In this document: positions 214 through 16,616 of the stretch, piece by piece
Layout: each line of letters starts with the position of its first letter
How positions within the stretch are numbered: the stretch's first letter is position 1
Source: Micromonospora chokoriensis
GTDB taxonomy: Bacteria; Actinomycetota; Actinomycetes; Mycobacteriales; Micromonosporaceae
NCBI RefSeq assembly: GCF_900091505.1
Contig: NZ_LT607409.1
Span: 558,001-622,000 of the forward strand
Length of the DNA stretch: 64,000 nucleotides
Reading direction: 5' to 3'
Made by a program: the position numbers and the translations under genes
Notes under the pieces: generated by a model
Database searches by the model: none
What the model saw: only the letters and a program-made list of their open reading frames with translations
What the model was told of the DNA's origin: nothing

Positions 214-221
214 CCCGTCAA

Positions 222-255
222 CGCCTGGCGGCCGGCAGGAGTCGGCCGCCAGGCG
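222..255 (+). terminator. Hairpin terminator after the left-edge gene
   Basis: Arms 222-234 and 243-255 pair perfectly over 13 bp (CGCCTGGCGGCCG on the left) around an 8-base loop. It begins 8 bases after the stop codon at 213. There is no T-run, as is common for actinomycete terminators. The rest of the gap to 492 shows no gene that I can support. Confidence 0.65.
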
Positions 256-492
256 CCACGGTCACCGGATACCGCGGCGGCGGCCCTCTGAGTCCCCCGC
301 ATCGATGGAGCGGTGGTTACCTGCTGCCGGCTGGTGCAGGGGCGGCGAAACACAGTGGTCACGCGCAGCGGACTGAACTGGACGCTGGTTGGACGCGCCC
401 GGCCGGTGCGGCTCCGTCGGCCGGCCCAGACCTCGAGCCGGTCATCCGGTCCGTTCGCGCGATGGGCGGTTTCTGATCTACGGTCCACTTCC

Positions 493-3400: not shown

Positions 3401-3732
3401 CGGGCCAGGCGCGCGAACACGCGACCGAGGCGCTCGGCCTCGCCGCTCAGGGCAGCCCGCTGGTGTTGGGCAAGGCGTACGCGACCCTGGGTGCTGCTCT
3501 CGTGGCACTGGGCGAGGGGCCCGCGGCCGTCGCCGCGTGCCGACACGCCCTGCGGGTCTTCCGACGGACCGGGCAGTCGCTCGGGTACGCCAACGCGCTG
3601 GTCCCGCTCGGGCGGGCGTACCACCTCACCGGTGCCGAGCGGGCCGCCCGCTCGGCGTGGGGCCGGGCGCACCGACACTTCGTCGAACTCGACATTCCAC
3701 GTCAGGCGGAGACCGCCGCGCTGCTCGGCTGA
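493..3732 (+). CDS. AfsR-like SARP regulator with NB-ARC and TPR domains
   Basis: A 1079-residue transcriptional activator of the AfsR class. The N-terminal winged-helix DNA-binding domain (about residues 10-95) and bacterial transcriptional activator domain (about 100-245) are the SARP module. They are followed by an NB-ARC/STAND ATPase with Walker A GPAGVGKT at 298-305 and Walker B VLLVLDN at 377-383, then TPR repeats (about 690-1070). In this family nucleotide state and the TPR region control DNA binding. The ATG at 493 is chosen because SARP homology starts directly after it; the frame is open upstream from 313, but that extension is Arg-rich and domain-free. No strong ribosome binding site precedes 493; GTG at 496 or 499 is possible. 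Its position next to a RiPP cluster and a second SARP suggests pathway-specific control. Confidence 0.85.
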   Translation: MVVSGTQVSLLGPVGLTVAGRRVELTGRQQALLGALVLEANHVVSAQRITDRIWGDDPPISAAARVRALVAELRRACGPQGATLIETRSPGYLLRVGDGQVDAALFVERVESARRAAFEGRPVEAIADYDAALTLWRGAPLAGLRGPHVEAEAVRLTEHRTAALEGRAEAMLALGRLHEAVAELTRLVAEDPLRERSQRLLMLALHSGGRAAEALKVYRDFRTRLIAELGLEPTEELRSLHQRVLAGTLEPAGPLPPESARIPRQLPADIGRFVGREAELKQLDWLAAGAERIVLVVGPAGVGKTALAVRWAHRAADDFPDGQLFLGMRGFDPGQRMSPNEALPLLLQALGQAPRDIPADLQAQVALYRSLLADRRVLLVLDNVATAEQIRPILPGGAGCLVVVTSRDRLGGLVAREGASRLGVAALEPQEAQALLAHGAGTDRLRAEPEAAARLAAQCGHMPLALSIAGARLAEQRHHTVGDYVAELADRGRLARLRVDGDEHTAVRSTLDLSYRALPAPARRMFRLMSLAPSGGLSSASAAALAGVDRGEAEELLDSVARVHLVTEVGVNRFAAHDLLLEYAAERVAEEDSPTERRHAVRRLMAYYLYSAVETARAGGFYLISSPPDTIPPHVTPESFRDRSHALAWLDETWEEITAAVHLSADLDSRPVACLLVIALQDYLHHFRPLAESVRMATIGLAAARRAGDLGGQAAMRLSLGHANWRMTRLVAGRAEYERALALARRANWRRGEADALRGIGVTLKQLGRPRQALARYRRSIRIDNALDNARGESSGLNNLASAYLALGRLGPAQRCLTASLPLAERIGDLNMQSIVLVNLGLVRQERGHLAAALHWLERSLAVARGAGLPYGEAISFEAVGRVHNDAGRWSLAADAHGAALRGACQAENLNCQVDALIGLAESATGEGRIEAALGRLAAAVTITDRTGHHAGRVESLLGLARVTLAGGQPGQAREHATEALGLAAQGSPLVLGKAYATLGAALVALGEGPAAVAACRHALRVFRRTGQSLGYANALVPLGRAYHLTGAERAARSAWGRAHRHFVELDIPRQAETAALLG

Positions 3733-3854
3733 CACGAGAATCGGGCGTCCTGTCGAGGACTGCTGACAGCGCCATGCGCGATCGGAGCGGAGATCATGCG
3801 GCCGGGTGCGACGTTGTGCCCTGGCACGTTCGCATCTCGTCGCGAGGAGCAGAG

Positions 3855-4610
3855 GTGGATTTCCAGCTGTTGGGCGCGGTCTCAGTTGTCAGCGGGGGCA
3901 GGCAGGTCCGTCCGTCCTCCGGTCGGGTCCGGAGCCTGCTCGCCTCCGTGGCCTGGCAGCCGCGCGAGTTCGTGCCCGACGAGCGGCTGATCTCGCGGAT
4001 CTGGGGCGAGGACATGCCCGTCGACCCGAGAGACGCGCTCTACACCTGCGCCAAGCGGTTGCGGCGTACCCTCGCGGAGGCCGGTGGGGCCGGGCGCGAA
4101 GTGGTGCGGTTGCGGGGCGGCTATCTGCTGGACGTGGATCCCGAGCGGATCGACCTGCACCGGTTCCGACAACTGGTCCGGCAGGCGCGGCTGGCCGTCG
4201 ACGACAACGCCGCCGCCTGCCTCTACGACCGCGCCCTGCGGTTGCCCGCCGGGGCTCCCCTGGCCGACGTGGACTCCCCGTGGGCGGACGGGGCCCGCGC
4301 GGCACTGTGTCGGGAGCAGTTGTCGGCCCGGACGGCCGCAGCTGCCGCCTGGCTGGCGGCGGGGCGGCACGCGGAGCTGGTGCCGGACCTGGTACATCTG
4401 GCCGAGGAGCATCCGCTGGACGAGGCGATCACGGGATTGCTGATGGAGGCGCTGCACCGGTGCGGTCACCAGGCCGAGGCGCTGGAACGCTATGCCGGCA
4501 TCCGCGCCCGACTGGTGGAGCAGCTCGGCGACGAGCCGGGACCGGCCCTGCGGCAGACGCACCAGCGACTGCTCCGGCGCAACCCGGGGTTGTCCCGAGC
4601 CGTGCCCTGA
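3855..4610 (+). CDS. Small SARP-family transcriptional regulator
   Basis: A 251-residue stand-alone SARP: winged-helix DNA-binding domain at about residues 1-90 (FQLLGAVSV start and SRIWGEDMP), then a bacterial transcriptional activator domain to the end. It lacks the ATPase and TPR regions of its 1079-residue neighbour, so it is a true small SARP of the kind that activates antibiotic clusters by binding heptamer direct repeats at promoters. The GTG start at 3855 is favoured because GAGGAG (3844-3849) lies 5 bases upstream and SARP homology starts there; an in-frame ATG at 3774 would add 27 non-homologous residues. It converges on the YcaO gene at 4727. Candidate target: the divergent promoter at 6035-6197. 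Confidence 0.85.
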   Translation: MDFQLLGAVSVVSGGRQVRPSSGRVRSLLASVAWQPREFVPDERLISRIWGEDMPVDPRDALYTCAKRLRRTLAEAGGAGREVVRLRGGYLLDVDPERIDLHRFRQLVRQARLAVDDNAAACLYDRALRLPAGAPLADVDSPWADGARAALCREQLSARTAAAAAWLAAGRHAELVPDLVHLAEEHPLDEAITGLLMEALHRCGHQAEALERYAGIRARLVEQLGDEPGPALRQTHQRLLRRNPGLSRAVP

Positions 4611-4703
4611 CCCGTTGCTTCGCACCACTTCGTCGCGGTATCCGAGGGAGCCGTCGTTCGGAGATCGTCCGGTCGGGGCACCGGCTGCGGCCGGGCGGAC
4701 TGA

Positions 4704-4746
4704 GCCATCGGTTGCGGCCCGGCCAGCTAGGCCATCGGTTGCGGCC
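4704..4746 (+). repeat. 16-bp direct repeat overlapping the YcaO 3' end
   Basis: GCCATCGGTTGCGGCC occurs at 4704-4719 and again at 4731-4746. The second copy is the minus-strand coding sequence for the last residues (PQPMA) of the YcaO protein. The first lies just beyond its stop and would encode the same PQPMA, so the 3' end of the gene has been locally duplicated. Confidence 0.7.
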
Positions 4747-6034
4747 ACGGGTTCAGTTTCGCCGGGGGCAGGACACGATAGCCCATCCGAGCCGGTGCCT
4801 CGTACAGCCTCGGATGTGCGGTGAACCGGATCAGGTGCTCGACGCTCATCGGCTGGAGGTCCGGGACGACGACGTTCACCGCGGTGAGCCCGACGTCGGC
4901 CAGTTCCCGGGTGGTGCGGTCGACGACGACCGGCCGCATCCCGGCCCCGGCGAGCCGGCCGACGACGTCGGCCAGCGCCTCGGACGGGTCTGCGGGCAGG
5001 GACGGCCGAGCCGTGGACGTGCGGCGATCCGCACCCTCCAGGAGGAAGTCGAACGCGTGCGCGTGTTCCGTACGGCCCATGTAACGGGTGGTGTCTCCCA
5101 CGGCCCGCAGCCGCGCCAGCGTCACCGGCTCCGCCGTCGGATCCACGAAGTGGATGAACTGCGGGACACCCAGCGCCTCCAGGAGTGCCTTGTGCGCGGC
5201 CCCGGTCAGATCCCGGGCGGAGCTGGCGCCGACCACCCGGTGCGCCCGCGGGTCGTACTCGGCGGCGACGACGCAGTAGACCGTCGGCACGCCCAGGTCG
5301 GAGGTGGCGTCGAAGAGGTGGACCTCCTTGAACCGGTCACGGCACCAGCCGACCAGTCGGCGCAGCCGTTCGTCAAGGCAGCCGGGGTCCACCGGCGGCA
5401 GAGCGAGCCGCTGGAGCCAGACGACAGCGTTGGCGTCCCGCTCGACGACCTCGAACAGCCCCCGGACGACGGCTTCCACCGGGTCGGTGTGAACCGCGAA
5501 GCCCGTGGACATCCGGCAGCTGAAGTGCTCCGCCGTCACGGTCTCGGTGAGTCCGTAACAGGCCAGCACAGCCGGTACCCAGACCGGCTCGCCGGTGACC
5601 AGGTCGAGCCCGGACGTCCAACGGATCGCCGCTCGGGGATCGAAGGGGACGATCGGGCAGTCCGGATGCGCGTACTCGGCTTCCGTGCACCGCGGGTACC
5701 GCTCCGGTTCCAGGCACTCGTCGCCCAGTTCCTCGGCAGTCGCCCAGATCCGTTCCTCGGCGAGGACGTCGCGACCCGCGTACCGTTCGGCGACCTCGGC
5801 GACGGCGACGAACCGCGCGAGACCCGGGTCGTCCCACGCCTGGCCGGAGCCGACGAGATTCTCCTGGTGACCGAGCCGGCGGACCGGACCGGGTGCACCC
5901 GCCTCCGACTTCCAGTAGCAGAAGTCGGCGGGCAGGCCCGGGGTGGCCAGCGCCCCGACTCGGGAGACCAGCCCATAGGGCGAGACCAGGCCGTCGAGCG
6001 ATGTCAGGTCCCTCGGTCGATCCCGGTGACGCAC
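4727..6034 (-). CDS. YcaO-type cyclodehydratase (copy 1, divergent)
   Basis: A 435-residue YcaO protein. YcaO enzymes use ATP to activate peptide backbone amides, giving azolines from Cys/Ser/Thr, or thioamides or amidines with other partners. The ATP/Mg-binding acidic motifs are visible: AEVAERY near residue 80 and FEVVERDANAVVW near 200. The C-terminus PWPQPMA keeps the PxPxP signature of azoline-forming YcaOs. The GTG start at 6034 (VRHRDRPRDL) has GGAGAGGGG about 7 bases upstream; a longer frame to 6220 is Arg-rich and without homology. It is divergent from the precursor operon and clearly paralogous to the plus-strand YcaO at 6415-7701 (shared tail DRTTRELADVGLTAV). Having two YcaOs suggests either a heteromeric enzyme or two distinct backbone modifications. 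Confidence 0.9.
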   Translation of the reverse strand: MRHRDRPRDLTSLDGLVSPYGLVSRVGALATPGLPADFCYWKSEAGAPGPVRRLGHQENLVGSGQAWDDPGLARFVAVAEVAERYAGRDVLAEERIWATAEELGDECLEPERYPRCTEAEYAHPDCPIVPFDPRAAIRWTSGLDLVTGEPVWVPAVLACYGLTETVTAEHFSCRMSTGFAVHTDPVEAVVRGLFEVVERDANAVVWLQRLALPPVDPGCLDERLRRLVGWCRDRFKEVHLFDATSDLGVPTVYCVVAAEYDPRAHRVVGASSARDLTGAAHKALLEALGVPQFIHFVDPTAEPVTLARLRAVGDTTRYMGRTEHAHAFDFLLEGADRRTSTARPSLPADPSEALADVVGRLAGAGMRPVVVDRTTRELADVGLTAVNVVVPDLQPMSVEHLIRFTAHPRLYEAPARMGYRVLPPAKLNPWPQPMA

Positions 6035-6197
6035 GTCCAGTCCCCTCTCCGGCCCCGCCCGCTCACGTTCGTCGGGCCCACAGCCTGGCAGTGCCTCCGG
6101 TCCGCGCCCGGTCACCGGACGACCGGTCGCCGACCGCCCGGCGACGGACGGTGCCGACAGGGTGGTCCACGCCCATTTCCACCGGAAGGAGAACGAG
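6035..6197. promoter_or_regulatory. Divergent promoter region with CCGGTC repeats
   Basis: This 163-base gap separates the minus-strand YcaO from the precursor gene and must hold promoters for both directions. CCGGTC occurs at 6097-6102, 6108-6113 and 6123-6128. The first two are 11 bp apart, the pitch of a heptamer plus 4-bp spacer typical of SARP operators; the third is 15 bp further on and does not fit that pitch. No convincing -35/-10 pair is visible, which is usual for SARP-activated promoters. Assignment as a SARP site is inference. Confidence 0.35.
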
Positions 6198-6335
6198 ATG
6201 GCGGCTGAAGACAGCACCACGGACCTCGACCTCGACGTCGAGGACTACGAGGAGTACGGCACGTTCGGCGAGGTGCCGATGTGCGGCGTGACGCAGAGCT
6301 CGAACGTCCAGTGCAACTACCCGATGTGCGCCTGA
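6198..6335 (+). CDS. RiPP precursor peptide (45 aa, three Cys)
   Basis: The ATG at 6198 follows GGAAGGAG (6184-6191) at 6 bases, an excellent ribosome binding site. The peptide has an acidic leader (residues 4-25, including DLDLDVEDYEEYG), typical of leaders bound by PqqD-like recognition domains, and a C-terminal core MCGVTQSSNVQCNYPMCA (28-45). The core has Cys29, Cys39 and Cys44, Thr32 and Ser34/Ser35, all possible sites for azol(in)e formation, and two PMC motifs (27-29 and 42-44) that could be a repeated modification site. It is the first gene of an operon with YcaO, E1-like, dehydrogenase, exporter and MNIO genes. The leader/core boundary is not obvious: cleavage near Gly24-Glu25 is a guess. 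I do not recognise the core as any known product. Confidence 0.85.
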   Translation: MAAEDSTTDLDLDVEDYEEYGTFGEVPMCGVTQSSNVQCNYPMCA

Positions 6336-6369
6336 GCCACCGGCGCGGGTAGTTCGACGAAGTACGACC

Positions 6370-6404
6370 GCCCGCCCGTCGTGCCGCGAGCACGGCGGGC
6401 GGGC
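6370..6404 (+). terminator. Intra-operon hairpin (attenuator or mRNA stabiliser)
   Basis: Left arm 6370-6384 and right arm 6390-6404 pair over 15 bp with a single G.U wobble and a 5-base loop (CGCGA). It lies 34 bases after the precursor stop and ends 2 bases before GGGGAGG, the ribosome binding site of the next gene. No T-run follows, so it probably attenuates or protects rather than fully terminates. Such a hairpin is a known way to make more precursor than enzyme. Confidence 0.65.
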
Positions 6405-6414
6405 CCGGGGAGGC

Positions 6415-7701
6415 ATGGTGAATCCGGAGTCTCTCGACGAACTGGTGTCCCCCTACGGCGTGGTGTCGGCCGTCTCCGACGCACGGCCGTCACGGATCTG
6501 CGACCGGCTCTACTCGTGCGGGGCCGAGGTGGGCACGCCGGGTCCGGCGAACACCCGTCGCCGTACCGGCCGGCTGGGCGGTGGTGGGCGGAGCTGGGCC
6601 GACCCGCGACTGGCCCGGTTCGTCGCCATCGCCGAGGGTGCCGAGCGATACGCGATGGCGCTGGCCCCGCACCGCCGGGAGATTCTGCGGGCGACCGCCG
6701 ACGAGCTGGCCGGCGAGTGTCTCGAACCCTTCCGCTATCCGCGCTGCTCGGCACGGGAACTGGCCACCCCCGGCTGCCCGGTCCGCCCGTTCGACCCGGC
6801 CGCGCCGATCAGGTGGGTCACCGGACTCGACCTGTACAGTGCCGCGCCGGTCCGGGTACCGGCGGTGATGGCCTGCCGGGACCTGGCCCCGATCGACGAC
6901 GCGGAACGCTTCGTACACCGACTCTCCACCGGCCACGCGGTGCACACCGATCCGGTGGAGGCGGTCGTCCGCGGCGCTCTGGAGGTGATCGAACGGGACG
7001 CCGTCGCCATCCTCTGGTTGCAACGGCTGTCCCTGCCCACAATTGCTCCGGGCGAGTTGGCCGAGTCGACGCTCCACCTTGTCGACTGCTGCCGACGCCG
7101 TTTCATCGACGTACGCCTGCTCGACGCGACGACCGACCTCGGCGTTCCGACCGTCTACTGCCTGTTGAGCGCCGTGCACGACCCGCGACTGCGGAACTGG
7201 ACGGCGGCGAGCACCGGTCGGACCCTGTCGGGTGCGGCGGCCAAGGCTGTGGAGGAGGCGGTCGCCCTTACCGGACTGCTGAACGAGGGCGCCAGCCCGC
7301 CGGGCGGTCCCGTGGGATCCGTGGCGGTGCACGACGGTGCCCGGTTCATGGGGGCACCGGAGCGGGCGGACGCATTCGACTTCCTGCTGACCGATGCCGT
7401 CGCGCCGCCGTCCCCCCGACGCCCGGAACTGCCGGCCGATCCGGACCTGGCCCTCGCGGCGCTGGTCGAGCGGCTGGCCGCCGCCGGAGCCCGGCCCGTC
7501 GTGGTCGACCGGACCACGCGGGAACTGGCTGACGTGGGGCTGACCGCGGTGCACGTCGTCATCCCCGACCTCCAGCCGCTGAGCCTCCACCCGCTGGCCC
7601 AGTTCACCGCACATCCACGGCTGTCCGAGGCACCTGCCCGGATGGGTTACCGGGTGCTGCCCGAAGAGGAGCTGAATCCATGGCCACAGCCGTTCGCCTA
7701 A
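6415..7701 (+). CDS. YcaO-type cyclodehydratase (copy 2)
   Basis: A 428-residue YcaO protein, second gene of the operon. Motifs match the divergent copy: AEGAERY near residue 78, LEVIERDAVAILW near 195, and a C-terminus PWPQPFA carrying PxPxP. The ATG at 6415 is only 1 base from GGGGAGG (6407-6413); GTG at 6418 is 4 bases away and may be the true start. The 3' end overlaps the E1-like gene by 22 bases, implying translational coupling and probably a stoichiometric complex. The two YcaOs share their frame of conserved blocks but differ widely between them, so the duplication is not recent. It may be the catalytic subunit for azoline formation on the Cys residues of the precursor. Confidence 0.9.
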   Translation: MVNPESLDELVSPYGVVSAVSDARPSRICDRLYSCGAEVGTPGPANTRRRTGRLGGGGRSWADPRLARFVAIAEGAERYAMALAPHRREILRATADELAGECLEPFRYPRCSARELATPGCPVRPFDPAAPIRWVTGLDLYSAAPVRVPAVMACRDLAPIDDAERFVHRLSTGHAVHTDPVEAVVRGALEVIERDAVAILWLQRLSLPTIAPGELAESTLHLVDCCRRRFIDVRLLDATTDLGVPTVYCLLSAVHDPRLRNWTAASTGRTLSGAAAKAVEEAVALTGLLNEGASPPGGPVGSVAVHDGARFMGAPERADAFDFLLTDAVAPPSPRRPELPADPDLALAALVERLAAAGARPVVVDRTTRELADVGLTAVHVVIPDLQPLSLHPLAQFTAHPRLSEAPARMGYRVLPEEELNPWPQPFA

Positions 7702-8339
7702 CCACCCCGGCCGCGATCGTCCCGGCTCAGACGGCCCTGCTCGGCATCGGTCCGTTCGGCCGCCGGGTCACCGGGCTACTGGCCCGGATGACGGACGGTA
7801 CGGAGGTTCCGCCCGACGACGCCCCGGAGACCGTGTTCGCCGGTACGCCGAGCGCGCTGGTGGTGGCCCTGTGGCGCCCGTCGCCCGCGTTGTGCGACCG
7901 GATCGACGAACGCGCCCACGCGACCGGTGTCCCCTGGCTGCCGGTCGTGCTGGAGCCCTCGCACCTGCGGATCGGACCGCTGGTGGTGCCGGGAGCCGGG
8001 CCGTGTCACGGCTGTTTCGAGGAACGCCGGGCCCAACACGATCCGCACTGGCCGGCGTCCGCGGCCTTGTACGCGGCCTACGACCGGAACCCGGCCTGCG
8101 GGCCGGCCGGGTTCCTACCGCAGCACGCGCGGACCGCGGCCGGGTTGGCTCTCCGCGTCCTGGCCCGCCCCGACGCGACGGCCGGTCGGGTGATCTCCGT
8201 ATCGCTGCGCGGGGTCTCCGTTCGGCAGGACCCGGTGCTCGCCTGCCACGGCTGCTCCCGCTGCGGGCGGCCGTTGCCCGAACGCGATCTACGTACCCTG
8301 CTGCGCCTGAAGAAGAGGGAGGACGCCGGTGTCCGATGA
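7680..8339 (+). CDS. Short E1/ThiF-like zinc protein (TOMM partner)
   Basis: A 219-residue protein with a Rossmann-type GIGPFG near residues 22-27 and two CxxC pairs, Cys109/Cys112 (PCHGC) and Cys189/Cys192 (ACHGC, followed by Cys195). This is the cysteine pattern of the structural zinc site in the E1-like (ocin-ThiF-like) proteins that present leader peptides to YcaO enzymes. It is much shorter than the E1-like region of the next protein and has no obvious PqqD-like recognition domain, so it may be a scaffold half of a split E1 partner. It overlaps the upstream YcaO by 22 bases and the downstream gene by 11 bases. Confidence 0.75.
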   Translation: MATAVRLTTPAAIVPAQTALLGIGPFGRRVTGLLARMTDGTEVPPDDAPETVFAGTPSALVVALWRPSPALCDRIDERAHATGVPWLPVVLEPSHLRIGPLVVPGAGPCHGCFEERRAQHDPHWPASAALYAAYDRNPACGPAGFLPQHARTAAGLALRVLARPDATAGRVISVSLRGVSVRQDPVLACHGCSRCGRPLPERDLRTLLRLKKREDAGVR

Positions 8340-10002
8340 CGTCCGAGTACGGCTGTGCCGTGGTCTCGCGGTGGTGCCGACCGAGGAGTCCCTCGTCGTG
8401 CAGGGCTCGGGGCCGCGCCACGTGTTCCGGGGTCGGGCCGCCGGCACGCTGCTGCCGCGACTTCTTCCCCTTCTCGACGGCTTCCGGGACCGGCAGGAGA
8501 TCGCCGCCGAGCTGGGCCTGCCGCCGGAGCGCCTGGACCGGCCACTGGCCCTGCTCGACCAACGTGGACTGCTGGAATCCGCCGCGCCACCCCGCCGGGG
8601 TGGGGCCCCCGAGCACGTCGTCGACTACCACTCACGCAGCCTCGACGGCAACGGCGGCCATCCGGGCACCGGTGCCCTGCTCGACGCGCTCGCGGTGGTC
8701 GCCGTGCACGTCGTCGGGCCGGCCGAGGTGGCCAGGGCGGTCGCCGCGGACCTGCGTGAGTGCGGCGTGGGCGAGGTTTCCTGCGGGCCACTCACCGAAA
8801 CCGGTGTCGAGGCCCTCTCCGGAGCCGAGCGGTCCCTGGTGGTGGTGGTCGAGGAGAGCCGGGACCCGTCGGCGGTCGAGCGGGTGGCCGGACTGTGTGC
8901 GCCACACGCCGTGCCCGTACTCCGGGTTGCCGCCGATCGCACCCATCTCGAGATCGGGCCGTGCTTCGTCCCCGGTCTCACCGCCTGCCCCGGATGCCTG
9001 CGCCGTGGCCGGGTCGAGGCGGGCTGGCCGGGTGCGGAGACCTCCGAGGCCACAGCCGGGAAGGCGGCCGGTATCGCTGATGCCACGGCCGGGGAGACGC
9101 TCGCCGGGCTGGCCGCGACCGAGGTGCTGGGCATCGTCTCCGGGGCGTCCCTGCGGGCTCCGACAACGGTGACGAGGATCGACCTCGACGCCTGGGACAC
9201 CGGCCAGCACGTCGTCGTGCCGTACCCGGACTGCCCGTGCGACGACGCCGGCGGCGACGGGCCGCAGCCGGATCTGGTGGACATCGGCCTCTGGATGACC
9301 GAGCGGGTGTTACCCGCCGCCCTGCGGGCCGGCCCCCCGTCGCGGGCCGTCCGGCGGAAGTGGCGGGAGCTGGCGGACGAACGTCCGGTCCACCACGCCC
9401 ACCCCCGGCGCGGGCTGGCGACAGAACGGTTGCCGCTGCCGGGGACGTTCGGCGACGGCGTGCGCCGGACCGCACCCGGAAGCCTGCACCAGCCACTGGT
9501 CGCCGACCTGCTCGCCCGGGTGGCGGGCCGACGGCGGGGCGAGGCCGACGGCCCGTCGCAGCGCTGGGTGCCGTCCGGCGGGCAGCTCGGGTCGGTGGAA
9601 CTCCACCTCGTCACCGAGACCGGCGTCGCCGACCTACCCGGAACGATCTTCCGCTACGACGATGTGAACCACGCGCTGATCGCTCTGCGCGCCGACGCCG
9701 TGCCGCTGGCCGACGCGCTGGCCGGCACCGACCTTCCCGCCGACCGTCTCGACGCCGCGCTGGTGTTCACCGCCGCGCACGACCGGGTGGCGGGAAAGTA
9801 CCAGGACTTCGCGTACCGGCTCACCCACCTGGACGCGGGCTGCGCCGTCACCCAGCTCGCCGCCGTCGCCAGCGCGCACGGGCTCCGCACGGAGTTCGCG
9901 ACCCGCTGGGACGAGAGCCTGGCCGAGCTGCTCGACCTGCAACCGACCGGCCGGTACGTGACCGTGGTAGCCGGCCTACACCGAGGTGAGACATGCCACT
10001 GA
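8329..10002 (+). CDS. Fused leader-binding/E1-like and SagB-type dehydrogenase
   Basis: A 557-residue fusion. Residues about 5-90 look like a PqqD-type winged-helix recognition element. Residues 95-310 are an E1-like region with a zinc site: Cys220/Cys223 (CPGC) and Cys302/Cys304 (CPC). The C-terminal part (about 340-555) resembles SagB-type FMN dehydrogenases, with PSGGQLGSVELHLV, a downstream FRYDDVNHAL, and KYQDFAYRLTHLDAG. SagB-type enzymes oxidise azolines to azoles. The GTG start at 8329 has GAGGGAGG just upstream. Joining leader binding and oxidation in one chain would keep the peptide bound through cyclisation and aromatisation. It overlaps the next gene by 10 bases. Whether the dehydrogenase part keeps FMN is uncertain, since a second nitroreductase-fold protein follows. 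Confidence 0.8.
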   Translation: MSDDVRVRLCRGLAVVPTEESLVVQGSGPRHVFRGRAAGTLLPRLLPLLDGFRDRQEIAAELGLPPERLDRPLALLDQRGLLESAAPPRRGGAPEHVVDYHSRSLDGNGGHPGTGALLDALAVVAVHVVGPAEVARAVAADLRECGVGEVSCGPLTETGVEALSGAERSLVVVVEESRDPSAVERVAGLCAPHAVPVLRVAADRTHLEIGPCFVPGLTACPGCLRRGRVEAGWPGAETSEATAGKAAGIADATAGETLAGLAATEVLGIVSGASLRAPTTVTRIDLDAWDTGQHVVVPYPDCPCDDAGGDGPQPDLVDIGLWMTERVLPAALRAGPPSRAVRRKWRELADERPVHHAHPRRGLATERLPLPGTFGDGVRRTAPGSLHQPLVADLLARVAGRRRGEADGPSQRWVPSGGQLGSVELHLVTETGVADLPGTIFRYDDVNHALIALRADAVPLADALAGTDLPADRLDAALVFTAAHDRVAGKYQDFAYRLTHLDAGCAVTQLAAVASAHGLRTEFATRWDESLAELLDLQPTGRYVTVVAGLHRGETCH

Positions 10003-10655
10003 TCCCCGTGGACGTACCAGCCGAGGCGCTGGCGGACCTGGTACGCCGTCGTGCCCCGTTCCCCCGCGTCATCGAAGGGTACGCGCCGGACGACGGGGCG
10101 GCCGAGCCCGTGACCGACGGCGTACCACTTGCGGCGGTCCTCGAAGGCCGTAGGTCGGTGCGGGAGTTCACGGAGACGCCGGTGGCCGAGGCGACGCTGC
10201 GCGCGGTGCTGCACCGGGCGACCCGGGCTCAGCGTGACCAGTGGCCGGTCGACCGGCACCCGGACCCGGGCCTGCGGTTGCTGCTGGCGGTCCGTCGCGC
10301 CGACGGTCCGGGTCGGGGCCTGTTCACCCCGACTCCCGCCGGCGACCTTCTCCCGCTCGGCGTTCCGGACTGGCTCGACGATCTGGCGGACGTCTACGCC
10401 GACGCGCCGGTGTTCGCGCTCGTCTGCGGCGACCCGGCGGGGGTGGGGCGGGAGGCCGCCGGAGGCCTGCTGGTCCGGATCGGCGCGCTCGGCTACGCCA
10501 TCTGGCTGGCCGCGCGCACCCACGGTCTGGAGTGCGCGGTGTTCGGCGCCGGCCACTACCTGGTGCGGCGGGAGGCGGCCAGGCTCCGCCCGGGGGCGCG
10601 GCATCTGTTCACCGTCGCGCTCGGACACCCAGCCCCGTCGACCGCGGTCGGCTGA
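9993..10655 (+). CDS. Nitroreductase-fold oxidoreductase
   Basis: A 220-residue protein of the FMN-dependent nitroreductase superfamily. RRSVREFT at residues 53-60 is the classic phosphate-binding start of the fold, and the C-terminal half (GGLLVRIGALGYAIWLAARTHGL, given here as residues about 151-173) matches the dimer helix and FMN-contact region. Overlap with the preceding gene (ATG at 9993, stop at 10000-10002) and the 4-base gap to the exporter place it within the operon. Since the preceding fusion already carries a SagB-like domain, the two may form a heterodimer or oxidise different rings. Confidence 0.8.
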   Translation: MPLIPVDVPAEALADLVRRRAPFPRVIEGYAPDDGAAEPVTDGVPLAAVLEGRRSVREFTETPVAEATLRAVLHRATRAQRDQWPVDRHPDPGLRLLLAVRRADGPGRGLFTPTPAGDLLPLGVPDWLDDLADVYADAPVFALVCGDPAGVGREAAGGLLVRIGALGYAIWLAARTHGLECAVFGAGHYLVRREAARLRPGARHLFTVALGHPAPSTAVG

Positions 10656-10659
10656 CGAG

Positions 10660-12540
10660 ATGGCAGCGTCGACCGCACACCGGTCCACCGCCGCTCCGTC
10701 CGACGGTCGGTCCCCCGAGGAGGCCGGGCTGTCCGGGCGGGCGCCGGTGGAGGTCACGACCTGGCTCGTGCTGCGCCGCGTGGCCATGCGCTACCGGCCC
10801 TACCGCTGGCACACCGTCGGCTCGGGGCTGCTGGTCCTGATCACGGTCGGGATGAGCACCGCGGCGCCGCTGCTGCTCCAGCGGATCATCGACGACGCCC
10901 TGCCCCGGCACGACACCACACTGCTCGCGGTGCTGTGCGGCCTGATGATGGCCCTCGGTCTGGTCGGCAGCCTCCTCGGCGTAGCCGAGACCGCGCTTAC
11001 CAACTGGACCGGCCAGCGCGTGGCGGCGCGGCTGCGCGTCGACGTCTACGACCGCGCCAGAGCACAGCCGCTGCGGTTCTACAGCGAGCAGGGCCAGGCA
11101 CAGATCCAGGCCCGCCTGGTCAGCGACATCGACGGCATCGACCGCTTCCTCACCAGCACGGTCCACCAGGCGCTGTCTGCGCTCACCGCACTGGTCGCGG
11201 TCGGGATCGCAATGATCATCCTGAGTTGGCCGCTGGCCCTCGTCTCACTGGCCCTTACCGCGCTGCTCAGCCTCTTCAACAACCGCTTCGCCCGGCGGCG
11301 GCGCCTGCTGTTCCGGCAGCGACAGCGGCTGCTGACCACAGTTCTGCGGTACGTCTCGGAGGACCTGTCCCTTTCCGGGGTGCTACTCGGCCGCACCCTG
11401 CGTCGCACCCGGACCCAACGCGACCGCTTCGTGGAGGTCGCCGAGGACATCCGGGACGTGACGTTCCGGCAGCGCATCGCGGGCATGTCGGCGTACACGG
11501 TCATCGGGGTCTCGTTCGCCTGTGTGCCGCCGCTGATCTTCTGGGCCTACGGCACGTTCACCCCAACGGTGTCGGTCGGCGCCGTGGTGGTGCTGGTCAT
11601 GCTTCAGACCAGACTGTCCCAGCCGATCCAGAGCCTGTTGCGGCTCAGCGGGGGTGTCCAGGCGTCCGTCGTGATGTTCGAGCGGGTCTTGGAGTACCTC
11701 GACATGGATGCCCCGGAGCGGGATGTCGCGCCGGTCCGGCGCACACCGGCCGGGCCGGCGGAGGTGCGGCTGCGCGGTGTCTCCTGCCGCTACCCGGGGT
11801 CACCGGCCCCCGCCCTCGCCGGAGTGGATCTGGACTTCCCCGCCGGGTCGGTGACCGTCGTCACCGGCCACACCGGTTCGGGCAAGAGCACCCTGGGACT
11901 CGTCCTGGCCGGCCTGCTCTCCCCGGACACCGGTACCGTCCGCGTCGACGGTGGCTCCGCCCTCCCTCGTGCGGCGGCCACCCTGATCCCGCAGCACACC
12001 GCGCTGTTGCACGGCACGATCCGGGACAACCTGCTGTTCGCCCGGGACGGCGTCTCCCAGGCAGAGCTGGACCGGGTACTCGACACGGTCCGGTTGGGTT
12101 CGCTGATCACCGCGTCGCGGCACGGCTGGGACACCTCGATCGGCGAGAACGGGCTACAACTCTCCGGCGGGGAGCGGCAGCGCCTGGGCATCGCACGGGC
12201 CCTGCTGGCCGACTGCCGGCTGCTCGTCGTCGACGAGGCGACCAGCGCCCTCGACCAGCACACCGCCGACCGCGTCACCGAGGCGCTGCGGGAGCACTGC
12301 CGGGACAAGACCCTGGTCCTCATCGCCCACCGCCTGCCCCGGCTGGAACCACAGGACCGGGTGATCGTGCTGGACCGGGGACGGGTCGCCGAGCATGGCA
12401 CGCACGGGCTGCTCAGCCGGGCCGGCGGCGCCTACGCCAGCCTGCTCGCGGCACAACCGGTGGCCCGGCCGGCCCGCCGTGAACCACCCCACCCCGAACC
12501 GCCCCGTCGTGCACCGGAACTGCCGTTGCGGACGACCTGA
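10660..12540 (+). CDS. ABC exporter (fused membrane and ATPase domains)
   Basis: A 626-residue type-I ABC half-exporter. The membrane domain covers about residues 40-340 with six hydrophobic segments (for example around 48-68, 165-205 and 285-320). The ATPase domain has Walker A GHTGSGKST at 403-411, signature LSGGE at 501-505 and Walker B with Asp525/Glu526. There is no N-terminal C39 peptidase domain, so it does not itself cleave the leader. The Pro/Arg-rich tail after about residue 600 is not conserved in the family. The ATG at 10660 starts 4 bases after the preceding stop. Its likely role is export of the finished peptide at the cytoplasmic membrane, which may also give self-protection. 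Confidence 0.9.
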   Translation: MAASTAHRSTAAPSDGRSPEEAGLSGRAPVEVTTWLVLRRVAMRYRPYRWHTVGSGLLVLITVGMSTAAPLLLQRIIDDALPRHDTTLLAVLCGLMMALGLVGSLLGVAETALTNWTGQRVAARLRVDVYDRARAQPLRFYSEQGQAQIQARLVSDIDGIDRFLTSTVHQALSALTALVAVGIAMIILSWPLALVSLALTALLSLFNNRFARRRRLLFRQRQRLLTTVLRYVSEDLSLSGVLLGRTLRRTRTQRDRFVEVAEDIRDVTFRQRIAGMSAYTVIGVSFACVPPLIFWAYGTFTPTVSVGAVVVLVMLQTRLSQPIQSLLRLSGGVQASVVMFERVLEYLDMDAPERDVAPVRRTPAGPAEVRLRGVSCRYPGSPAPALAGVDLDFPAGSVTVVTGHTGSGKSTLGLVLAGLLSPDTGTVRVDGGSALPRAAATLIPQHTALLHGTIRDNLLFARDGVSQAELDRVLDTVRLGSLITASRHGWDTSIGENGLQLSGGERQRLGIARALLADCRLLVVDEATSALDQHTADRVTEALREHCRDKTLVLIAHRLPRLEPQDRVIVLDRGRVAEHGTHGLLSRAGGAYASLLAAQPVARPARREPPHPEPPRRAPELPLRTT

Positions 12541-12569
12541 GCGACCCGTACCGAACGCGAGGAGACGCC

Positions 12570-13424
12570 ATGTCCAGTACCACCATCTCCGCCCCGCCCG
12601 ACCTGGGCGTCGGGCTCGGCTATCGCGAGGAGCTGCACGACGGGATCCTCGCCCACCCGGCCGCGATCGACTGGCTGGAAATCGTCACGGACCGCTATCT
12701 GGTGGATCCGGCGCAGAACAAGCTGCTGCGCGCTCTCCGGGACCGTTTCGTCGTGGTCGCCCACGGCCTGGAGATGTCGATCGGCTCGGACACCCCGGTG
12801 GATCCGGACTACCTGGATGCCGTCGCGGCGGTGGCGGACGCCGTCGACGCACCCTGGGTCAGCGACCACCTCTGCTTCACCCGGGAGGACGGCGTCGAGC
12901 TGCACAACCTGACGCCGGTGCTCCGCACGGAAGAGAAGGTCAGGACGATAGCCGCGAACGCGCAGCGGGTGCAGGACCGGCTGGGGCGGCCGTTCCTGCT
13001 GGAGAACATCAGCTACTACCTCGACCTGCCGGGCGGCATGACGGAGGCCGAGTTCATCACCGCCGTCCTCGACCGCTGCGACTGCGGCCTGCTGCTCGAC
13101 CTGAACAACGTCGTGGTCAACGCGACCAACCACGGGTTCGACCCCTACGACTTCCTCGACGCGCTGCCGCTCGACCGTGTCGTCCAGGTGCACCTGGCGG
13201 GCAACCTGGGCCAGGGTGGCGTACCACTCGTCGACGGCCACGACGCCCCGGTGGGAGAGGACGTGTTCGCACTGCTCGAACACCTGGAGAGCCGCCAGCA
13301 CATCCGGGCCACCATGATCGAACGGGACGGTCACTTCCCCGACGACTTCACCGAACTGATCGACGAGCTGGACCGGGTCCGTGCCACCCTCACGGCGGGC
13401 AGCGTCTCCCGCGGTGCCCGATGA
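12570..13424 (+). CDS. DUF692 multinuclear non-heme iron oxidase (MNIO)
   Basis: A 284-residue TIM-barrel protein of the DUF692 family, which includes MbnB (methanobactin) and TglH. Metal-ligand motifs are in order: AHGLEMSIGS, SDHLCF, LENISYY, LLDLNNVVVNATNHG, VQVHLAGN, GHDAPV and MIERDGHFPD. The His/Glu/Asp/Asn ligands that I can identify are present; the residue after HLAG is Asn where many relatives have His. MNIOs use two or three irons and O2 to rearrange Cys and other side chains in RiPP precursors. The ATG at 12570 has GAGGAGA 6 to 12 bases upstream. Its stop overlaps the next gene as ATGA. Presence with YcaO genes in one operon predicts a doubly modified peptide. Confidence 0.9.
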   Translation: MSSTTISAPPDLGVGLGYREELHDGILAHPAAIDWLEIVTDRYLVDPAQNKLLRALRDRFVVVAHGLEMSIGSDTPVDPDYLDAVAAVADAVDAPWVSDHLCFTREDGVELHNLTPVLRTEEKVRTIAANAQRVQDRLGRPFLLENISYYLDLPGGMTEAEFITAVLDRCDCGLLLDLNNVVVNATNHGFDPYDFLDALPLDRVVQVHLAGNLGQGGVPLVDGHDAPVGEDVFALLEHLESRQHIRATMIERDGHFPDDFTELIDELDRVRATLTAGSVSRGAR

Positions 13425-14233
13425 GCACGGAGTACGCCTTTCCCGCTGGCGGGCAGGCGCTGCTGGCCAGGCTCCTGATCGACGGGTCGCTCGCCGAGGA
13501 GTTGCACGCCGACCCCGACAGGTTCGCCCGACGACACGGCACCGACCCCGAGCTGGCCCGGCGACTGGCCGCCGTGCCACTGCCCGGCCTTCGGCTCACC
13601 GCCTCGATCACCAGCCGCAAACGCAAGGCGAGGTTCACCGCCGCCTTTCCCGGCAGCGCCGCCCTGCTCCGCGACACCGCCGCGGAGGAGACCGTGCTGC
13701 GCCCCGTACTGGGACGTCGGTCGTTGAGCCGGCCCGAGGACAGCCTGGCGGTCGGGAGCGAGCTCGCCGCCGCCGTTGCCACGCTGCCCAGCACCGCCCG
13801 GATCCGGCTGCTCCGCGAGATGGTGGCGTTCGAAACCCTCTGGTACGAGGCACGGGTCGGCACCGGTGGGGTGGAACCGCCACCCGGCCCGCCCGCGCTG
13901 CGGCCGGGCGTCCTGCTCGCAACGTTCGATCGCCCGATCGCAGAGATCCAACGGAGCGTCGTCGCCGGACGGGCGGCCGACAGCCTGCCGAGCGGCACCA
14001 CCCACTACCTGCTGCACGCCACGAGCCGTTCCGGCCTGGTGCGGACGTACCGGCTGCCGTCGAGGCTGGCGGACCTGCTCGCCGCCTGCGACGGCGTTCG
14101 GACGACCCGTGCGGTCGCGCACCGGGCCGGACTGGACATCGAAACCGCCGAACGCGGCCTACACGGCATGGTCGCCAAGGGTTTCCTGGGCGGACTGGAC
14201 GTCCGTGGCACCGGAAATGGGCTGGCTGGATAA
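13421..14233 (+). CDS. MNIO partner protein
   Basis: A 270-residue protein coupled to the MNIO by a 4-base ATGA overlap. The N-terminal third (LLARLLIDGSLAEELHADPD at about 11-30, then a basic SITSRKRKARFTAAFP stretch) resembles partner proteins encoded beside DUF692 genes in actinobacteria. The last about 80 residues look like a winged helix (DLLAACDGVRTTRAVAHRAG), a plausible leader-binding element. By analogy with MbnC and TglI it should form a complex with the MNIO and deliver the precursor. I see no catalytic motif. It is the last gene of the operon. Confidence 0.7.
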   Translation: MSTEYAFPAGGQALLARLLIDGSLAEELHADPDRFARRHGTDPELARRLAAVPLPGLRLTASITSRKRKARFTAAFPGSAALLRDTAAEETVLRPVLGRRSLSRPEDSLAVGSELAAAVATLPSTARIRLLREMVAFETLWYEARVGTGGVEPPPGPPALRPGVLLATFDRPIAEIQRSVVAGRAADSLPSGTTHYLLHATSRSGLVRTYRLPSRLADLLAACDGVRTTRAVAHRAGLDIETAERGLHGMVAKGFLGGLDVRGTGNGLAG

Positions 14234-14243
14234 GACGAAGTTG

Positions 14244-14258
14244 CCGGGGTTTCCCCGG
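14244..14258 (+). terminator. Weak hairpin after the RiPP operon
   Basis: CCGGGG (14244-14249), loop TTT, CCCCGG (14253-14258) forms a 6-bp GC stem 10 bases after the last stop, followed by CACCTTT. It is short for a terminator; the stronger hairpin at 14398-14433 could also stop the operon. Confidence 0.35.
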
Positions 14259-14397
14259 GCACCTTTGCTGACAACGGGTGACGACCGAGCGATCCCGGCT
14301 CAGGGCAACATCCCTCGTCTACCCGGCCCGGAAGACCGCGATCGCGGAGAGCTGCCGCGCCCAGGCGTTTTCGGGGGATGAACTCATCGACAAAATT

Positions 14398-14433
14398 AAG
14401 GCCCTGACCGACACTCTCCCTGGTCAGGGCCTT
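14398..14433 (-). terminator. tRNA terminator, possibly bidirectional
   Basis: AAGGCCCTGACC at 14398-14409 pairs perfectly (12 bp) with 14422-14433. Read on the minus strand, the stem is followed by TAATTTTGT, a T-rich tail, and starts 6 bases after the tRNA 3' end. Read on the plus strand it could also stop the RiPP operon. Confidence 0.8.
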
Positions 14434-14439
14434 GCGAAG

Positions 14440-14513
14440 TGGAGCTGAGGGGATTTGAACCCCTGACCCCCTCGATGCGAACGAGGTGCGCTACCAGTCT
14501 GCGCCACAGCCCC
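14440..14513 (-). tRNA. tRNA-Ala (anticodon CGC)
   Basis: The minus strand folds as a 74-nt cloverleaf: acceptor GGGGCTG paired with CAGCTCC including the G3.U70 pair that identifies alanine tRNAs, anticodon stem CCTCG/CGAGG with loop TTCGCAT (anticodon CGC, codon GCG), and a T arm with GGTTCAAATCC. The 3' CCA is not encoded. The tRNA 3' end faces the RiPP cluster, so an integration site here is conceivable, but I see no integrase or duplicated tRNA end. Confidence 0.95.
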
Positions 14514-14633
14514 CCACCGGCGAACCGGCTTCGGTCCCACCCGGCTTACACCGGGCGGGCCGGCGCCAAGGCTAACAGGTCGCCCGCCCCCACCGCGAAT
14601 CCGCCCCCGGTGCGGCGTCGCACCCCGCCCGGA

Positions 14634-14708
14634 GATCCACTCGGGTTGCCGAAAATCGGGGCATCCGGGACGCCCCGACACCCCGACTTCCCGAAACCCG
14701 AGTCGATC
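14634..14708. repeat. Long imperfect palindrome (GATCGACTCGGGTT family), copy 1
   Basis: The left arm starts GATCCACTCGGGTT and the right arm ends AACCCGAGTCGATC; inside, CGGGGC and GCCCCG pair again, giving a stem spanning most of 75 bases with a few mismatches. The same arm sequence recurs as a palindrome at 22636-22712. It lies in the 365-base gene-free stretch 14514-14878, which otherwise holds a tandem repeat and the tRNA upstream region. Confidence 0.65.
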
Positions 14709-14710
14709 AA

Positions 14711-14872
14711 CCCCCCGACGGGCCGCGAGCGGCCCCCGACACCCGCGAGCGCCCCCGACGGGCCGCGAGCGGCCCCCGACACCCGCGAGCGCCCCCGACG
14801 GGCCGCGAGCGCCCCCGACGGGCCGCGAGCGCCCCCGACGGGCCGCGAGCGCCGCCGACAGGCCGCCGACGC
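14711..14872. repeat. 20-bp tandem repeat array (about 8 units)
   Basis: Units of exactly 20 bp, alternating between GGCCGCGAGCGGCCCCCGAC and a variant with ACCCGCGAGCGCCCCCGACG, run from about 14711 to 14872, ending in a degenerate copy. There are no unique spacers, so it is not a CRISPR array. It sits just downstream of the minus-strand sepX gene (ends 14879) and could vary in copy number. Confidence 0.85.
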
Positions 14873-14878
14873 CGTCTG

Positions 14879-15655
14879 TCAGGCGCCCCGGCCGGCCTCG
14901 TAGGGGCGGCCGCGCAGCCCACCCGACCGGCGGTACGAGACCGACCCGCCGTTGACCGCCGCCGGCAGGTCGCCGGGTCGGTCGAGGCCCATCGCGGCGC
15001 GGCGTACCCCCTCGCGTTGGGCGGCGAGGCGGCGCTGCGCCTCACGGCGGGCCGCTGCCCGGCGGGCCTGCTCCCGGCGCACCTCGGCCTGCCGGTCGGC
15101 GAGCCAGGCGGCTTCCCGGGCCCGGGCGCGGCGACGGCGGCGGCCGGCCAGGGCCCGGCGGCGGAGGTGGACGACGTACACGGCCAGGAGCAGGAAGGTG
15201 ACCGCGAAGCTGACCCAGAAGCCGGGGCTGACGAACACCACGCCGATCAGCTCGACGACGTTGAGGAGCAGCAGGGCGGCGAGCACCCGACGCCGCCGGT
15301 ACACGGCGGGGGTGTGCTGCCGTTGGGGCGGCGGGCGGCGGCGCGACTTCTTCGGCGCGGGCGGTACGGCGCGTAGCCGGCCGGAGCGGCGGGCGACCGG
15401 CGGCGCGGAGACCGGCGCGGCCAGCGTTCCCGTAGCCGCGTCCTCACTGAGAGTGACCACCAGTGAGCGCGGGGGGTGGACGGGTCGCCGTCCCGGCACA
15501 GTGCGACGCCGCCGGCGGCGCTGGAGCACCCGCGCCGTCGACTGCGCCCGCTCCGCCACCAACCGCTCGGTGGCGTCGTACCGGCGAACCAGCGCCGGGG
15601 CCAGGGCGAGCAGGCCGGCGGCGGCGAGGACGGCGAGGAGCACCGAGGTCGGCAC
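14879..15655 (-). CDS. sepX: SepX/GlpR-type divisome membrane protein
   Basis: A 258-residue membrane protein with an N-terminal transmembrane helix (about residues 3-20), a basic linker, a central pair of hydrophobic segments (about 128-162) and a very Arg/Ala-rich coiled-coil C-terminus. This layout, and location three genes from galU beside a MoeA-like gene, fits the actinobacterial protein called SepX in Streptomyces and GlpR in Corynebacterium, the membrane receptor of the gephyrin-like divisome protein Glp. The GTG at 15655 (VPTSVLLAVLAA) is favoured because GGGAGGGG lies just upstream; GTG at 15673 would put that site inside the gene. It is last in a minus-strand run with the acetyltransferase, Glp and GalU. 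The identification rests on context and topology. Confidence 0.7.
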   Translation of the reverse strand: MPTSVLLAVLAAAGLLALAPALVRRYDATERLVAERAQSTARVLQRRRRRRTVPGRRPVHPPRSLVVTLSEDAATGTLAAPVSAPPVARRSGRLRAVPPAPKKSRRRPPPQRQHTPAVYRRRRVLAALLLLNVVELIGVVFVSPGFWVSFAVTFLLLAVYVVHLRRRALAGRRRRRARAREAAWLADRQAEVRREQARRAAARREAQRRLAAQREGVRRAAMGLDRPGDLPAAVNGGSVSYRRSGGLRGRPYEAGRGA

Positions 15656-15838
15656 CCTCACCCCTCCCGTCACCGAATTCGAAGCAACCGCTCTCCGACC
15701 GCAGGATCTTCCACAGATCCCGCCCGCGTACGTGGATCGTCCGGCCGGTGAGCGCTTGCCGCAGCTTGCAGTTACTTGAGGTTACGGCGAGTCGACCGGG
15801 TTGCCACCGCGCCGCGCCGATCCCGTCCGTGGGACGGC

Positions 15839-16489
15839 TCACCGCGCGTCGGCGCGTACCCGATGCCAGCGGGCCAGCAGGCCACCCTCGGCGGCGATCT
15901 CCTCGCTCGTCATCGCGTATCCGATGTGGTCCCGCCAAGCGCCGTCGATGTGCATGTAGCGCACGTGGTACGACTCCTCGCGGAAGCCGAGTTTCTCCAC
16001 CACCCGCCGCGACGGCCGGTTCTCCGGCCGGATGTTGACCTCCACGCGGTGCAGCCCGCCCGGACCGAACGCGTGGTCCACGGCGAGCGCGAGCGCCGTG
16101 GGGATCACGCCTCGCCCGGCGACCCGAGCGTCCACCCAGTACCCGACGTAACCGGAGCAGAGGGCCCGCCGCACGATGCTGCCCACGTTGATGTGACCGA
16201 CCAACCGGTCCCGGTCGGCCTCACGTAGGCAGACAGCGAACGGCATGCTCTCGCCCTCGCGGGCCGAACGCCGCTGGTCACGGTGCACCCAACGGAACGC
16301 GGCCGGCGAGTTCATGTCGTCCCAGGCGCCGGGCAACGACGACTCCCAGGGTGCCAGCCAGGCCCGGTTGGCCCGCCGGATCTCCGACCACGCCGCGGCG
16401 TCGGTGCGCCGGTACGGCCGCAGCAACACCGGCCCGTCCGCCAACTCCACCGGCCAGCCCGGTGCCCGCGGGGGTCCGAAGAGACTCAC
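15839..16489 (-). CDS. GNAT N-acetyltransferase, RimJ/RimL type
   Basis: A 216-residue acetyl-CoA-dependent acetyltransferase. Visible family features are RPYRRTDAAAW near residue 24, VGYWVDARVAGRGVIPTAL (acetyl-CoA-binding RxxGxG/A loop, about 125-143), VNIRPENRPSRRVVEKLGF (about 155-173) and a C-terminal HIDGAWRDH. RimJ-like enzymes acetylate N-termini of ribosomal or other proteins. The GTG at 16489 has GGGAGA 8 bases upstream; GTG at 16495 is an alternative. The gene is conserved between sepX and the moeA-like glp, so its substrate could be a cell-division protein, but this is inference. In the 127 bases upstream an 18-bp sequence (CCACCGCGGCGACCCGAC) is repeated in tandem at 16533-16568. 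Confidence 0.85.
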   Translation of the reverse strand: MSLFGPPRAPGWPVELADGPVLLRPYRRTDAAAWSEIRRANRAWLAPWESSLPGAWDDMNSPAAFRWVHRDQRRSAREGESMPFAVCLREADRDRLVGHINVGSIVRRALCSGYVGYWVDARVAGRGVIPTALALAVDHAFGPGGLHRVEVNIRPENRPSRRVVEKLGFREESYHVRYMHIDGAWRDHIGYAMTSEEIAAEGGLLARWHRVRADAR

Positions 16490-16616
16490 CCGCACAGTCT
16501 CCCGTGCGGGACCGTGTCGCGCGCAAGTGGACCCACCGCGGCGACCCGACCCACCGCGGCGACCCGACGGCCGCGTGACTCCCCGGCGGATCCCCTGCGG
16601 CCCGACCGGGAGATCG

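Follow-up and report, generated by a model that had tools for sequence, protein, structure and literature searches.

A conserved actinobacterial gene cluster predicted to join azol(in)e formation and an MNIO enzyme on one precursor peptide

We analyzed a 64,000-nt stretch of DNA (the window; positions 558001-622000 of the one-contig, 6.9 Mb genome of Micromonospora chokoriensis) and identified a gene cluster for a ribosomally synthesized and post-translationally modified peptide (RiPP). We think it probable that the genes form a RiPP cluster conserved in actinobacteria, in which an azol(in)e machine and a second pair, a multinuclear non-heme iron-dependent oxidative enzyme (MNIO) with its partner protein, are both predicted to modify one 45-residue precursor. 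An earlier note on this DNA had described a compact operon with a short precursor, two YcaO proteins with PxPxP ends, two E1-like proteins, two dehydrogenases, an ATP-binding cassette (ABC) exporter and an MNIO with partner, adjoined by a pair of SARP-type regulators. We found that the precursor, the two PxPxP YcaO proteins, the exporter, the MNIO and its partner were real and that the core genes recurred in seven other loci, and family matches identified both regulators. The two E1-like and two dehydrogenase folds were also present, but in three proteins and not four, since the second E1-like domain is fused to the first dehydrogenase. Compactness held for a plus-strand operon whose neighbors overlap or lie at most 29 nt apart, except for the 79-nt gap between the precursor and YcaO-B; it did not hold for YcaO-A, which is divergent, lies outside the operon and is preceded on its left by SARP1 and SARP2. 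The YcaO-A start had been placed at 6220, while 6034 or 6115 is the likely position (start codon inferred). The features are listed below, the operon (6198-14233) first and the upstream genes after it; L024 and L025 are related loci.

6198-6335, plus strand: precursor peptide, 45 aa, MAAEDSTTDLDLDVEDYEEYGTFGEVPMCGVTQSSNVQCNYPMCA (open reading frame (ORF) reading; orthologues in L024 and L025)
6336-6414, plus strand: intergenic hairpin of 15 bp in the precursor/YcaO-B interval, a possible attenuator (predicted fold)
6415-7701, plus strand: YcaO-B, SagD-type cyclodehydratase, C-terminus NPWPQPFA (TIGR03604, 249.2 bits)
7680-8339, plus strand: E1-like protein bearing the motifs CHGC and CHGCSRC, without a recognized RiPP recognition element (RRE) (TIGR03882, 53.2 bits; alignment)
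8329-10002, plus strand: E1-SagB, a fusion of RRE, E1-like domain and SagB-type dehydrogenase (TIGR03882, 51.4 bits; TIGR03605, 68.3 bits; PF00881, 25.9 bits)
9993-10655, plus strand: NR, a second nitroreductase-fold protein, with RRSVREF and without the Lys-Tyr pair (PF00881, 30.7 bits; 16-row alignment)
10660-12540, plus strand: ABC exporter with membrane and ATPase domains, no peptidase domain among its Pfam matches (PF00664, PF00005)
12570-13424, plus strand: MNIO (DUF692) enzyme (PF05114, 284.2 bits, cut-off 25)
13421-14233, plus strand: MNIO partner, with a helical N-terminal domain and a C-terminal RRE-type winged helix (predicted model)
4727-6034, minus strand: YcaO-A, SagD-type cyclodehydratase, divergent gene, C-terminus NPWPQPMA (TIGR03604, 279.5 bits)
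3855-4610, plus strand: SARP2, a small AfsR-like SARP-family regulator (NF053617, 130 bits, below the cut-off of 1430 set for the full-length family)
496-3732, plus strand: SARP1, a SARP-family regulator with NB-ARC and TPR regions (PF03704 BTAD, 142.5 bits; PF00486, PF00931, TPR)

Relatives were sought with the E1-SagB protein as the search hook. Matches were found in at least 21 of 300 genomes of the family (E 1e-20), in at least 19 of 392 genomes (1e-25) of the genus of genome G524, taken as Streptomyces and containing the S. sedi and S. zhaozhouensis loci, and in at least 2 of 396 genomes of a phylum sample (1e-40), one being the window's own genome; these counts are all lower bounds, since three or four candidates per genome were scored in nearly all genomes. 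A two-peptide-pattern scan that can miss members, run over 84,980 species at one genome per species, gave at least seven loci, and a partner search added Micromonospora sp. WMMD967 and Streptomyces coelicoflavus, which stand outside the counts. Removal of duplicates by shared 60-mers left 44 distinct loci (the window, L024-L043, L044, L046-L050 and L117-L133). The MNIO and its partner were present in eight of them; absence from the other 36 means that tblastn gave no MNIO match in the stretch fetched (~15-22 kb; a contig end lies close to the start of L129 and L133). The seven MNIO-containing loci other than the window were L024 (genome G120, of the same genus as G078, Plantactinospora mayteni; 92-96% protein identity to the window, ABC gene absent), L025 (the window's genus), L026, which equals L045 (P. 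mayteni), L044 and L047 (distinct clusters, both from S. sedi), L048 (S. zhaozhouensis) and L046 (Nonomuraea typhae). Their E1-SagB proteins were 43-93% and their MNIOs 58-96% identical to those of the window (MNIO: L024 96%, L025 86%, the rest 58-65%). Gene content was kept across four genera, and the order NR-ABC-MNIO-partner was seen in six of the eight loci, the exceptions being L024, which has no ABC gene, and L044, with the MNIO pair placed upstream of its azole genes. The MNIO and partner frames overlapped by 4 nt in all eight, given the starts chosen (GTG in L044, L046, L047 and L048; in L046 a further GTG lies 3 nt beyond the MNIO stop). Six of the eight loci, all but L047 and L048, had matches to SARP-type genes nearby, with long tblastn matches to SARP1 of 46-96% in L024, L025, L044 and L045. 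The two MNIO-containing azole clusters of S. sedi are diverged and have different precursors.

We then compared the descent of the two machines. The E1-SagB and YcaO trees covered 24 of 27 distinct loci (L035, L037 and L039 were omitted, and L117-L133 are in no tree). MNIO presence required 2 changes on the 24-row E1-SagB tree, against a mean of 6.9 when shuffled. The MNIO and E1-SagB trees shared the starred branches uniting the window with L024, these two with L025, and L047 with L048; L044 joined next on the MNIO tree (support 87/90). When 21 MNIOs, drawn from these clusters and from elsewhere in Micromonospora, were compared, the eight cluster MNIOs formed one side of a branch with support of 81/95, unstarred. 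These trees suggest that the azole machinery and the MNIO largely descend together.

For the azole part, YcaO-A and YcaO-B both scored above the TIGR03604 (SagD family) cut-off of 219.25 bits, and their PDB relatives were LynD and TruD. The E1-like protein and the fusion both exceeded the TIGR03882 cut-off of 36.9, and the cluster has an E1-like leader-binding protein with an RRE, as an azol(in)e RiPP cluster should. The SagB domain of the fusion was below the TIGR03605 cut-off of 78.4 and above the PF00881 cut-off of 23.5. A Lys-Tyr pair was found in 21 of 24 aligned E1-SagB proteins (L040 has Arg-Tyr, L042 Ser-Phe and L043 Ala-Phe), and an Arg-Ser-x-Arg-type pattern in none of the 24, in the part searched. 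Conversely, an Arg-x-(Ser/Ala)-x-Arg pattern occurred in 15 of 16 aligned NR proteins, taken from the loci where tblastn showed NR (L030 has His as the last Arg), and the Lys-Tyr pair in none. From McbC and the nitroreductases, we take the Lys-Tyr pair to be catalytic and the Arg motif to bind flavin mononucleotide (FMN). The simplest reading of the alignments is that E1-SagB and NR probably form one heterodimeric dehydrogenase with split active-site motifs; a literature search at the level of titles and opening abstract lines listed no report of such an enzyme. NR also occurs in loci without an MNIO, and hence it belongs with the azole part.

The presence of two YcaO proteins raises an alternative, in which one of them makes a macroamidine, as in bottromycin, or a thioamide rather than an azoline, giving a more complex product. 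Bottromycin has two YcaO enzymes. On the tree, the YcaO-A clade grouped with the single YcaO of L044 (support 100/99) and excluded YcaO-B, indicating that the two are old paralogues and not the outcome of a recent duplication. However, both proteins pass the azoline-family cut-off, no TfuA match was found among the cluster proteins in Pfam and NCBIfam (for the ABC protein, among the best 25 of 190 NCBIfam matches), and only three of the eight MNIO-containing loci have both YcaOs, the other five showing one YcaO in the stretch fetched. We regard this alternative as rather unlikely.

In the MNIO, residues H65, H100, E145, N180, H208, D222, H224 and E251 were invariant in all eight cluster proteins, and the aligned positions of 3BWW, 8HCI and 7DZ9, which include TglH and MbnB, carry identical residues. 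We take these residues to bind metal, and an MNIO domain with conserved candidate metal-site residues, the mark of an MNIO RiPP cluster, was found here. By family score, the enzyme was closest to BufB (252.2 bits) and HvfB (226.8 bits), below the equivalog cut-offs of 310 and 360, respectively. The predicted structure of the partner matched TglI and placed it with the TglI/PME-type partners. Its RRE resembled that of E1-SagB (hhalign E 6e-5, probability 65), and the models indicate that the azole and MNIO machines each have their own leader-binding-type domain.

The MNIO-partner pair could instead act on another peptide encoded elsewhere, the cluster being two neighboring pathways. A second, distant MNIO lies in the same genome (G000:C1:3.33 Mb), and other MNIO substrates may therefore exist there; in L044, moreover, the MNIO pair stands outside the azole operon. 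Against this stand the tight operon with overlapping frames, the same position of the pair in six of eight loci, the co-descent of the azole and MNIO genes, the likeness of the partner RRE to the azole RRE and the lack of a second ORF in positions 1-16500 that passed the precursor search. We consider two separate pathways improbable. Least probable of all is a plain linear azole peptide as product, with the MNIO carried along as a vestige, for although 36 of the 44 loci have azole genes with no MNIO in the stretch fetched, the eight candidate metal-site residues are invariant and the MNIO is conserved at least as well as the YcaOs (96% versus 96% in L024, 85-86% versus 81-84% in L025).

MNIOs are common in Micromonospora. 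Any MNIO match (E 1e-20) was found in 147 of 160 genomes of the genus, mostly as one copy and at ~39-45% identity among the matches listed; the window type was found in 2 of the 160, and the other listed Micromonospora MNIOs were at most 52% identical to that of the window. A putative housekeeping-type MNIO of the genus is exemplified by L077 (9929-10714, minus strand). Other Micromonospora MNIOs in L071, L072 and L073 (49-52% identical) adjoin a methyltransferase (Pfam, L071 and L072) and, by reading, metal or siderophore-type transporters, with a P-type metal ATPase also in L072, and their neighborhood is a possible metallophore cluster. In a third kind (L074, L075 and L076; 45-47%), the genes beside the MNIO were, by reading, glycosyltransferase-like, asparagine-synthase-like and two ABC-exporter-like. 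L071-L076 (45-52%) were rejected as members of the cluster family, no YcaO match being found within the 20 kb fetched.

The precursor carries Cys at positions 29, 39 and 44, and its calculated monoisotopic mass is 4926.98 Da, or 4795.94 Da once Met is removed. It was the only candidate with a Shine-Dalgarno-like site and at least two Cys among 93 ORF/start combinations (20-120 aa, mostly outside named genes, positions 1-16500), and it matched no family in profile scans. Its orthologues in L024 and L025 were 89% and 57% identical and retained Cys29, Ser34, Ser35, Cys39 and Cys44. Thr appears to be dispensable at position 32, where the window has Thr, L024 has Ala and L025 has Ser. Precursors of the other loci were sought near YcaO only, with Shine-Dalgarno plus Cys or acidic-residue filters, and many loci without an MNIO gave none. 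All eight precursors from MNIO-containing loci had at least three Cys, in diverse cores with 3 to 6, and most of the relatives among them had an acidic LDLD/LELE-type leader. The hairpin after the precursor gene folded at -46.9 kcal/mol, and the same stem was predicted in L024 and L025 (z -2.2, -1.3 and -4.0); it may fix a high precursor:enzyme ratio.

We propose the following pathway. SARP proteins would switch the cluster on, and the RRE of the E1-SagB fusion would bind the acidic LDLD leader. YcaO-A and YcaO-B, aided by the E1-like proteins and using ATP, would cyclize Cys, and perhaps Ser34/35, to azolines, which the SagB domain and NR, probably a heterodimer with one shared FMN site, would oxidize to azoles. 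The MNIO would be recruited to the same leader through the RRE of its partner and would then likely oxidize a remaining core residue, most probably Cys. A protease encoded elsewhere would remove the leader, after which the ABC protein would export the product, possibly a metal chelator or antibiotic. We placed the MNIO step last because the MNIO of the std cluster of Streptomyces thermodiastaticus left the unmodified peptide unchanged and works once the other steps are done (PMC13174530), and because a later enzyme of the goadsporin pathway seems to need azoles first (PMC5303826). Cys was favored as the target, and its oxidation is likely, because the MNIO scores nearest BufB and HvfB, makers of thiooxazoles (PMC12668002, where a 4 Da loss is reported for 5-thiooxazole), and because every precursor accompanied by an MNIO has at least three Cys.

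Several observations qualify this reading. The MNIO-lacking loci L027 and L050 fell among the MNIO-containing ones on the E1-SagB tree, with weak support and long branches, so that MNIO loss or a second gain is possible. Precursor comparison gave no motif that separates loci with an MNIO from those without: a CG dipeptide was found in seven of eight precursors with an MNIO and yet also in L028, L049, L050, L117 and L122, which lack one, and a penultimate Cys in six of eight and yet also in L028, L049, L117 and L122. The precursors that were found in MNIO-lacking loci were Cys-rich too. The earlier note had treated the MNIO as a Cys-oxidation route, which is likely but no more than that, since MNIOs also act on residues other than Cys, such as Asp and Asn (PMC11002830, PMC12636437). 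The note knew of no characterized product with this gene set, and our literature search found none; it covered subscription papers in part, so that a report elsewhere is possible. The pairing of YcaO and MNIO itself has a precedent: the S. thermodiastaticus cluster has a YcaO-TfuA thioamide pair and an MNIO that hydroxylates homocitrulline (PMC13174530, a preprint of May 2026). This was the single YcaO plus MNIO pathway found in our literature search, and an MNIO survey (PMC12452194) names YcaO in its reference list alone. A doubly modified peptide, as the note had proposed, nevertheless remains the best reading, given the conserved genes, co-descent, two leader-binding-type domains and one precursor, with the chemistry as prediction.

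If the prediction is right, the cluster would join two routes able to compete for the same residue, Cys going to thiazole or to MNIO products on one short peptide, and the system would therefore reveal what governs the choice of sites and the order of steps. The eight clusters with diverse cores offer a compact test set, with sister clusters lacking the MNIO as natural controls, and the split dehydrogenase, if real, would be a common enzyme built in an unusual way. More speculatively, the cluster might represent a new class of RiPP, with YcaO thiazoles and an MNIO-made Cys heterocycle (e.g., 5-thiooxazole) on a single peptide, possibly as a mixed-ring metal chelator or antibiotic, with two machines each having its own leader-reading domain, YcaO paralogues dividing the sites and a dehydrogenase split into two unlike half-motif subunits; we hold this view only tentatively.

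The flanks were also informative. L024 shared positions 416-14238 of the window at ~95% DNA identity, except for the ABC gene, and no sequence beyond them in the stretches compared; at 8234-8312 of L024, window positions 10630 to 12525 had no counterpart. Genus relatives had colinear flanks and lacked the cluster: in G237, the match on the left stops at about -2300 and picks up again at 14439, with ~1.3 kb between. Position 14439 is the 3' end of a tRNA-Ala gene (14439-14513), which the cluster-bearing insertion abuts. These comparisons point to horizontal arrival beside the tRNA gene. The left side showed no direct repeat of at least 12 nt of the tRNA, no integrase was seen among the listed ORFs (by reading; no family search was made), and plasmid and phage records gave no near match at megablast sensitivity. 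An ARAGORN tRNA-Arg call at 5792-5881, inside YcaO-A on the same strand, is probably false.

Among known systems, pearlins use a peptide aminoacyl-tRNA ligase, and no counterpart was seen among the family matches of the window cluster; the pearlin TglH-TglI complex (8HI7) is 11% identical over the aligned part. The S. thermodiastaticus cluster resembles ours in having one RiPP precursor, a YcaO enzyme and an MNIO with an RRE-bearing partner, but it has YcaO-TfuA thioamidation, a carbamoyltransferase-protease and an SNKEWQE core. The window cluster has neither the TfuA partner nor that core and has instead E1, SagB and SagD-type YcaOs, which predict azoles on a Cys core. Goadsporin-type linear azole peptides likewise pair a cyclodehydratase and an FMN dehydrogenase with a short leader-bearing precursor (PMC5303826). 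Unlike them and the thiopeptides, the window cluster has no match to a LanB-type dehydratase among the proteins scanned (Pfam); it adds an MNIO with partner, a second YcaO and NR, and its E1 and SagB are fused. Captophorins and bufferins are 5-thiooxazole metallophores (PMC12668002, PMC12452194), and the likeness to them lies in the MNIO, nearest BufB/HvfB, in a partner with a helical domain and an RRE, and in a Cys-containing substrate. The differences are an MNIO below both equivalog cut-offs, a precursor with no EGKCG motif and no signal peptide (judged by reading), the azole machine, and a partner that lacks the DUF2063 signature and is of type 2 in the terms of PMC12452194. Judged by its sequence features, the cluster is a hybrid of the azole and MNIO kinds of RiPP, distinct from the captophorin, S. 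thermodiastaticus and goadsporin-like types.

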